From positions 25,479 to 89,478 of the forward strand of contig JAMDHS010000083.1 of the NCBI GenBank assembly GCA_029717555.1: a stretch of 64,000 nt of DNA. Direction: 5' to 3'. Made by a program: the position numbers and the translations under genes. This document shows, piece by piece, positions 10,304-12,519 of the stretch; positions within the stretch are counted from its first letter, which is position 1, and each line of letters begins with the position of its first letter. Origin of the DNA: Peribolospora baueri. Taxonomy: Eukaryota; Basidiomycota; Peribolosporomycetes; Peribolosporales; Peribolosporaceae. Under the pieces are notes generated by a model. It searched no databases. It saw only the letters and a program-made list of their open reading frames with translations, and was not told the DNA's origin.

Positions 10304-12519
10304 TCACAGACCAGGGGGAGCGCCGTTGGCTCCGCCGGCCAGGCCTCCAGGGACGCCTTCCCAGAGGCCATACTTTTTTCCGGGGTACGTCTGCCACAGC
10401 CGGATCGTTCCTGGACACACCGCGAGAGGAGAGAACAATGTCAACGGAGGAAAGAAGACGAGCAGATCGAAGAGGCTTGACGGCTCACCATCCTCTGGAA
10501 AACGCGGACGAACGAGAAGACCACATTGGAGGGACAGATAAGTGACTTCAATCCTCCTGACTACTACACCAAGAACTCGGCCCATCTCAAACCGAGACCA
10601 CAGACTCACCACTCCCGGTGGCGCCCACCTCCCCATCGGGGCTATAACTAACGCAGTGCACGGGCCCGTGGTGCCCTTTGTGCAGCTCCCTCTCCACGCC
10701 CGTCTCGTAGTCGTATATCCGCACCCACCCGTCGCCCACGCTGCCCGCAATGAACCGGTCCGCCAGCGTCGGGTGCAGCGAGGCCGACGAGGGCGCCTGC
10801 GGGAGCGTCCACTTGCGTCGGATTTGGCGGCTGATTCGGAGAGAAAGGGAAGACGCCGGCGGGGTCAGCGACGTACGAAAAGGGACAAAGCGAGCCGAAT
10901 CGGTACGCCTTTGTCGTCGGGGGCTCAGAGAGCCAGCTCACCTCTCCGCGTCAATGAACAAAACGTCCTTTCCTGTCGTGACCGTCAAAATCTCGCCAAA
11001 GGCGGGACCAGAAGAGCGCTCCATTGAGGTGATCGGATCTGGAAGGACCATCTCGTGTGTCATCGCTTGCGTTCGCAGGTCCCACCATCTTCGAAAGGGT
11101 AAAGGATGTAGGGACCGGCGGAAAGAGGTAGGGAGAATGGGATGAATCGGTGTGCCCACAGCCGTGGACAGATAGGAGAAAAAGAAGACGAAAGAAAAGT
11201 GAGTGACCAAGCGACGACGCTCGCACCAGCTCGATCGACCGCTGTTTCGTCCATAACCCGCAGCACCGTCCTTGAACGTCGACCTTGGTCTCGGCTCCTG
11301 GGACCGTCACTCTCGCGTAAACCACGAAACCCTCCCACGCACCTAATTGCTTTATCCTCCCCAGCGCTCACCGCACTCCTCCCCTCGTTCGCCCCTCTCT
11401 CCCACACGACCGACTTGATCGTCCCACTGTGCGCCAATCCTCCCGCTGCCGTCGCTCCATTCGTACCGGGAGCACCGACCGCAGCGCCGCCCGCAGCGCC
11501 ACCGCCGCCGGAAGAAGAAGCCGGGTTGAAAAAGAGCACGGGATCGGCGTCCGGCCTGTTCAAATCGAACAGTCTAAGCTTCTTCTCGTGCCCGCCAGTG
11601 AGGATGCGATCCCCGGCCGTGGAGATGGCGACGGTCCGAACAATGTGCTCGTGGGAGAAGGTGTGCAAAGGAGCGCCAGTGTATGTGTCCCAGACCTTGC
11701 TGTGGATGGAAGAAGATTAGAGGAGGAAGCAAAACGCGGGGAGCGTACGACTGAGCGGATGAGATCTAGGAATACGGAAACCAACGCTCCCGGGTGACGT
11801 TTTTCTCACGCGGTGAAGTCTGCACTGCCAGTCACCGCCCTGGCAGCGTCTCCTCCTGAAAGCTTGGCGCTCCACACGGCTCCCTTGTGTCCTAATTGTC
11901 GAGGGGAAGGGCAAGTTGTAGCGGAGCGTTGAGATTGAAGTACGAGGAATGGCGACTGAGCCGGTGTTGCTGGATTCCACCTCCAGGAGGCAAATGGGCT
12001 GAATGCCACTTACCGATGAAGGTTCCAATCCAGTCGCCCAACCAATCCCGAAGCCTGACGGAACGAATGAGCAGGTTCAGAAGGCGAAGACACAGAGCGC
12101 AGAAAGTCGAAAGATAAGCAATAAAGGAATGAGTTCTCCAGCAATGAAGCCGTATGAAAAGGCTCTAGAAACAAAGACAGGACAAACGCACATTGGATTG
12201 CCGTCCTTGCAGCTGCTGAGCAAGAGGTAAGTGCCGTCATCCTGAAGACCGGAGAACTCGAGGTGGACGACTGGACGCGTGTGACCGGAGCAAGTGAGGG
12301 GGATCGCTTTCTGAAGACGTCCGATGAATGTATATGAGCGAGGGAGTCGCCGTTCGGTCGAGCATGAGCACCAAGCGACAGCGAGAGTAGTCACGCGAGC
12401 GACACGCCACGAGCGATCAAAAGCTTGTACGAGCATTCAGTCTACTCATCGCAAACCTGGGGGCCACTCACCCTTGGGACAGGAGCGGGAGAAGGAGAGG
12501 CGGAGACAACAGAAGACAT
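10304..12519 (-). CDS. STRAP: STRAP/Unrip-like WD40-repeat protein
   Basis: Nine exons (12519-12472, 12310-12192, 12054-12014, 11891-11810, 11699-11343, 11088-10942, 10830-10610, 10494-10489, 10410-10304) encode 375 residues, close to the 350 of human STRAP. The start region KAIPLTCSGHTRPVVHLEFS and the core blocks [51 protein letters not shown] and [19 protein letters not shown] match STRAP specifically rather than generic WD proteins. In animals this protein works with the SMN complex in snRNP assembly and in TGF-beta signalling; only the former is likely in fungi. A Gly/Ala-rich insertion of about 35 residues follows the third repeat. One exon is a 6-nt microexon that supplies Glu-Asp of the last repeat. 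It lies in the same window as Sm D2, an SMN substrate in animals, though the two are not adjacent. Confidence 0.93.

Follow-up and report, generated by a model that had tools for sequence, protein, structure and literature searches.

Whether six nucleotides can make up a complete coding exon is the question raised by a WD40 repeat gene on the minus strand of the 64,000-nucleotide window (the whole stretch of DNA that was analysed), in which the hexamer AGGATG lies between two predicted introns. The reading we prefer, with a probability of roughly 0.86, is that a STRAP (unrip)-like WD40 gene has AGGATG as a coding exon of 6 nt, constitutively included and the remnant of an ancestral exon. Homology, reading frame and splice sites jointly dictate this exon, which automatic annotation may overlook. 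The features concerned are the following:

10304 to 12519, minus strand: coding span of the STRAP-like WD40 gene, with nine exons and 375 amino acids (from the joined coding sequence, Pfam WD40 and the presumed human STRAP).
10610 to 10830, minus strand: predicted exon 7, 221 nt, ending AGT G at 10610 in phase 1.
10495 to 10609, minus strand: predicted intron 7, 115 nt, GTGAGT...TTTTCCAG.
10489 to 10494, minus strand: candidate 6-nt microexon AGGATG, the sole in-frame internal exon giving SEDGTIRLW, with a gain in WD40 score.
10411 to 10488, minus strand: predicted intron 8, 78 nt, GTGAGC...TGTGTCCAG, divisible by three in length and free of in-frame stops.
10304 to 10410, minus strand: predicted exon 9, 107 nt including the stop codon, which aligns to the presumed human STRAP.

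The nine modelled exons measure 48, 119, 41, 82, 357, 147, 221, 6 and 107 nt, and the eight introns between them are all of the GT-AG type. When joined, they yield a coding sequence of 1,128 nt in frame 0 without an internal stop, and its 375 amino acid product scores 92.9 bits against the Pfam WD40 profile (gathering score: 27). The product was aligned to a sequence which we take to be human STRAP, the only human WD40 protein used in the family assignment, with 147 of 345 columns identical (43%; 43 gap columns). This alignment to the presumed human protein covers both termini of the product, PLTCSGHTRPVV on the N-terminal side and GSEDGT.RLWQT..GK.YGLW on the C-terminal side. The last WD repeat and the GK.YGLW tail are common to both proteins, while the product contains an insert rich in Ala and Gly at about residues 155-185 and lacks the longer tail with which the presumed human STRAP ends. 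The similarity thus extends over the full length of the product, in agreement with the sequence-only reading, which had called the gene STRAP-like, and a STRAP/unrip-like identity is supported for the gene at 12519-10304, hanging on the presumed human sequence. Two other WD40 families were considered and rejected, namely eIF3i (EIF3I: 94.3; cut-off: 200) and THOC3 (THOC3: 109.6; cut-off: 305). The best 60 of 518 PDB matches include no chain named STRAP. Among 20 matches in the organism's own genome, six correspond to the STRAP-like gene itself and 14 are weak WD40 matches (best e-value: 3.6e-6). One scan of viral contigs returned no relatives, and one scan of genome contigs recovered four bacterial WD40 loci at 25-28% identity.

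The hexamer AGGATG (10494-10489) sits directly between a TTTTCCAG acceptor and a GTGAGC donor, and the outer junctions read GGGAGTG|GTGAGT at the end of exon 7 (10610) and TGTGTCCAG|GAACG at the start of exon 9 (10410), so that the letters and positions given earlier for the hexamer and both neighboring exons are correct. Its first two bases complete a Glu codon, the next three form an Asp codon and the sixth opens a Gly codon, and its joining to exons 7 and 9 produces AGT GAG GAT GGA ACG, encoding Ser-Glu-Asp-Gly-Thr. Introns 7 and 8 are both in phase 1, and the six-base exon is therefore symmetric. At 6 nt it falls well within the 30-nt limit for microexons, is flanked by AG and GT and keeps the frame on both sides, and the joined coding sequence reproduces the earlier claim that the frame holds at both junctions and that skipping removes Glu-Asp in frame.

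With the outer splice sites fixed and each intron required to be at least 45 nt, 59 internal AG..GT exons are possible between exons 7 and 9, of which 16 preserve the reading frame and contain no stop. Only one of these, at 10494-10489, gives the motif SEDGTIRLW, and none of the 36 in-frame single-intron models which preserve a given 14-residue sequence does so, which bears out, among the models enumerated, the proposal that the motif can be rebuilt solely through the hexamer. Three longer candidates (57, 72 and 75 nt) use the same donor (10488) and insert 17 to 23 extra residues. The included model is also distinguished by its Pfam WD40 score of 46.6 bits, compared to 32.8 when the exon is skipped, 32.5 when intron 8 is kept and 26.8 to 28.5 for four other in-frame models chosen by hand from the enumerated set. 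Inclusion thus gains about 14 bits in the WD40 profile over skipping or retention.

The scores bear on the possibility that the six bases are a chance occurrence and that exon 7 is joined straight to exon 9, giving a protein without Glu-Asp. The 10610-10410 junction is indeed in frame, but the direct join deletes the tetrad Asp of the blade, leaves its turn two residues shorter and scores 32.8 rather than 46.6 bits. Chance was estimated through 200,000 first-order Markov simulations of 199-nt intervals. Any AG-N6-GT arrangement is common, arising in 0.575 of the simulated intervals, while one which restores Glu-Asp in phase arises in a fraction of 0.000415, and the same Glu-Asp-restoring site with a YAG acceptor and a GTRVG donor in 2e-5 of simulations. 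A chance hexamer beside a direct junction is accordingly extremely improbable. The string AGGATGGTGAGC occurs 19 times in the genome, compared to once for the reversed control, as expected for a common exon/donor junction; the string alone therefore proves nothing, and it is its position which does.

A second alternative is that intron 8 is no intron, or is mostly retained, such that the last exon would extend from 10494 to 10304 and add 26 residues to the last WD repeat, after the Asp-Gly turn and ahead of Thr-Ile-Arg-Leu-Trp. The 78 nt are a multiple of three and free of stops, the resulting protein is full length, and an automatic gene finder could well pick this model. The error could consequently pass unseen, as a wrong model in which intron 8 is kept still encodes a full-length product. 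The sequence-only reading had described exon skipping as an in-frame loss, which holds, but it had overlooked that keeping intron 8 likewise preserves the frame. The strength of the splice sites was compared to 18 hand-curated introns from four genes of the window, with leave-one-out scoring. The acceptor of intron 8 (10411) is the weakest, with 0/18 reference introns scoring lower, a further point in favor of retention. The acceptor at 10494, immediately ahead of the microexon, is mid-range (8/18 lower), its donor at 10488 is ordinary (6/18 lower), and 11/18 reference introns score below the donor of intron 7. The word "perfect", applied earlier to the 10494 acceptor, was thus an overstatement. 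In a first scoring against 17 curated introns which formed part of their own training set, the 10494 acceptor reached 3.78 compared to a lowest reference value of 4.3, and the 10410 acceptor scored -0.88, far under the reference minimum; leave-one-out is the fairer comparison. Self-trained splice models, based on 254,478 bases (the window, 19 stretches of 10 kb and 478 bases within the window span), were dropped; they yielded two, zero and two introns, and 299 in another run with noisy acceptors, many of which were not YAG.

Against the retention of intron 8, the WD40 score is only 32.5 bits rather than 46.6, and the BLAST alignment to the presumed human STRAP requires a 26-residue gap within an otherwise continuous motif. 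The stretch is furthermore intron-like, with a GTGAGC donor, a TTGAC motif and 75% pyrimidine in the 20 nt ahead of its CAG. TTGAC is the single YTNAY match in intron 8, its A lying 30 nt from the 3′ end, and intron 7 likewise contains a single match, CTTAT, the A of which is 44 nt away from the 3′ end. These branch-site-like motifs are weak evidence, since the loose YTNAY motif also occurs within 80 nt of the end in five of the six other introns of the gene. Overall, a retained or absent intron 8 appears very unlikely, and the 6-nt exon is retained as the preferred reading.

What the hexamer contributes to the protein is suggested by its place in the WD40 blade. The position aligned with its Asp is Asp in 5/5 repeats of PkwA and in all 13 listed of the 14 repeats of 2ymu. 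The tetrad Asp and the residue preceding it (D-1) are described as structural and contact positions of WD40 blades (PMC3419727). By assignment from the motif, the microexon supplies both, the tetrad Asp through its Asp and D-1 through its Glu, which adds a structural detail to the six-base exon: it would carry the tetrad Asp together with the residue ahead of it. Skipping would be expected to impair the last WD repeat; constitutive inclusion is favored on this ground, and we consider it the likeliest use of the exon.

The exon, if real, may instead be alternatively spliced, with two or three isoforms and a regulatory role. Skipping and the retention of intron 8 both leave the frame intact, and the retention of intron 7 would lead to a premature stop. 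Elsewhere, a microexon switch has been reported in Trichoderma (PMC11121469), and in a plant construct the mis-splicing of a 6-nt exon was frequent (PMC4674806). However, the residues lost are structural by motif and do not extend a loop, and no sign of regulation is seen here, such that regulated inclusion seems unlikely. A more elaborate proposal, drawn by analogy, is that the microexon acts as a built-in splicing gauge through which the STRAP level is subject to splicing-dependent feedback. In animals, STRAP reportedly interacts with the U2 snRNP and helps in 17S U2 assembly, and its loss alters exon skipping (PMC7684319). If the protein described here acts like its animal counterpart, its own hardest exon would be missed once splicing capacity drops, and the three outcomes, namely skipping (no tetrad Asp), retention of intron 8 (26 more residues) and retention of intron 7 (stop), would all lower functional STRAP. 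It counts against this feedback that the third WD40 domain, rather than the last, is reported to be required for the splicing activity of STRAP (PMC7684319), and we regard it as highly improbable.

Under constitutive inclusion, introns 7 (115 nt) and 8 (78 nt) would most likely be recognized by intron definition. They would be taken out sequentially, one after the other in either order, since both sides of a 6-nt exon could hardly be bound at once. Exon definition over so few bases is thought to be sterically infeasible, and for microexons a form of intron definition has been proposed in which Prp40 links U1 to the branch-point protein (PMC8378409). In the same account, PRP-40 is needed less where a flanking intron is very short (PMC8378409). 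Six matches to FF domains, the type of domain found in Prp40, lie on two contigs of the genome. Stepwise intron removal has also been suggested for a 1-nt exon of Arabidopsis (PMC4674806). When the 9-nt exon of potato invertase was replaced by a 6-nt exon, the latter was skipped or mis-spliced in more than 50% of transcripts (PMC4674806), so that inclusion depends on context and the full inclusion of a 6-nt exon is no given.

With regard to origin, we infer that two phase-1 introns were inserted six bases apart into an old continuous exon, of which the microexon would be the remnant. This two-insertion origin is the simplest because the Glu-Asp codons are common to the presumed human STRAP. 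Duplication of a single intron finds no support as the origin: aligned locally, introns 7 and 8 score 11.0, a value which 125/500 shuffles also attain.

The hexamer would be a further example of the tiny exons known in fungi and leaves the range of possible exon sizes unchanged. Its description as near the lower limit of known sizes is dated, given reports of 1-nt exons and of 5- and 6-bp exons in basidiomycete yeasts. Before 2015 the smallest known constitutive exon was 6 nt, according to the paper that describes a 1-nt exon in Arabidopsis APC11 (PMC4674806), and a second 1-nt exon was reported in Fusarium CYP621A in 2026 (PMC12940212). As in our model, sequential splicing by intron definition has been proposed for the APC11 exon (PMC4674806), and the CYP621A exon lies within a conserved motif and is needed to rebuild it (PMC12940212). 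Both are, however, backed by transcripts (PMC4674806, PMC12940212) and shift the frame if skipped, whereas the exon described here is predicted and skipping it is in frame.

Closer in size are exons from other basidiomycetes. In the bglA genes of Sirobasidium magnum and Rhodotorula minuta the smallest exons measure 5 and 6 bp (PMC9142197), and these genes of basidiomycete yeasts resemble the STRAP-like gene in both exon size class and their many short introns. They differ in that bglA is another gene, the exons of which were set by comparison to cDNA, while the present exons derive from the genomic sequence, and in that one Rm-bglA intron beside the microexons is GC-AG (PMC9142197), in contrast to the eight GT-AG introns here. 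The shortest exon in the P450 genes of Phanerochaete chrysosporium is also 6 bp and codes for two amino acids (PMC1184071), a two-residue exon in a basidiomycete gene as in our model. Those genes form a large multigene family (PMC1184071), while the STRAP-like gene has only weak WD40 matches outside itself. By title, the literature matches listed include no microexon in a fungal STRAP gene, and the one paper retrieved that names both microexons and STRAP concerns an alpha-synuclein cell line. Across the four genes modelled in the window, two of 16 internal exons are 30 nt or shorter, namely the six-base exon and a 20-nt exon of an SmD2 gene; the four genes were picked for convenience, and 2/16 is no genome-wide rate.

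The genome comprises 22.1 Mb in 178 contigs. Multi-exonic genes with GTGAGT-like donors in the window, together with a presumed histone H4 gene and the SmD2 gene, are consistent with a fungus, and intron density and GC content tentatively suggest a basidiomycete yeast. The second microexon is located as follows:

5850 to 5869, minus strand: 20-nt microexon of the SmD2 gene (6608-5742), predicted to encode the GDSVVL stretch.

Skipping this exon shifts the frame, and with it included the SmD2 product matches Sm D2 proteins of known structure (best e-value: 2.9e-46; entry 3jb9, which we take to be from fission yeast). The SmD2 (6608-5742) and STRAP-like (12519-10304) genes are on the same strand with 3.7 kb between them. 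Animal STRAP is a member of a complex which loads Sm proteins; the proximity of the two genes may be due to chance. A five-exon gene (8308-7460) lies between them, presumably encoding histone H4; Pfam, at e-values up to 1e-5, returned the CENP-T histone fold only for this gene. For 5.8S rRNA, a single match was reported from the assembly (contig C106:65728-65878; 101 bits). It looks diverged and is followed by an apparently short and altered large-subunit start, as read by eye; it could be a piece derived from rDNA and not the working rDNA. Elsewhere in the window, a five-exon gene on the plus strand (3607-5457) contains DSGSADLW and DSGTSFALF motifs, by which we take it to be a probable aspartic protease. 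Among the open frames listed for the window, the longest (1,173 amino acids) is at 56896-60417 on the plus strand and is partly overlapped by a region of marked AT skew (58001-62000).
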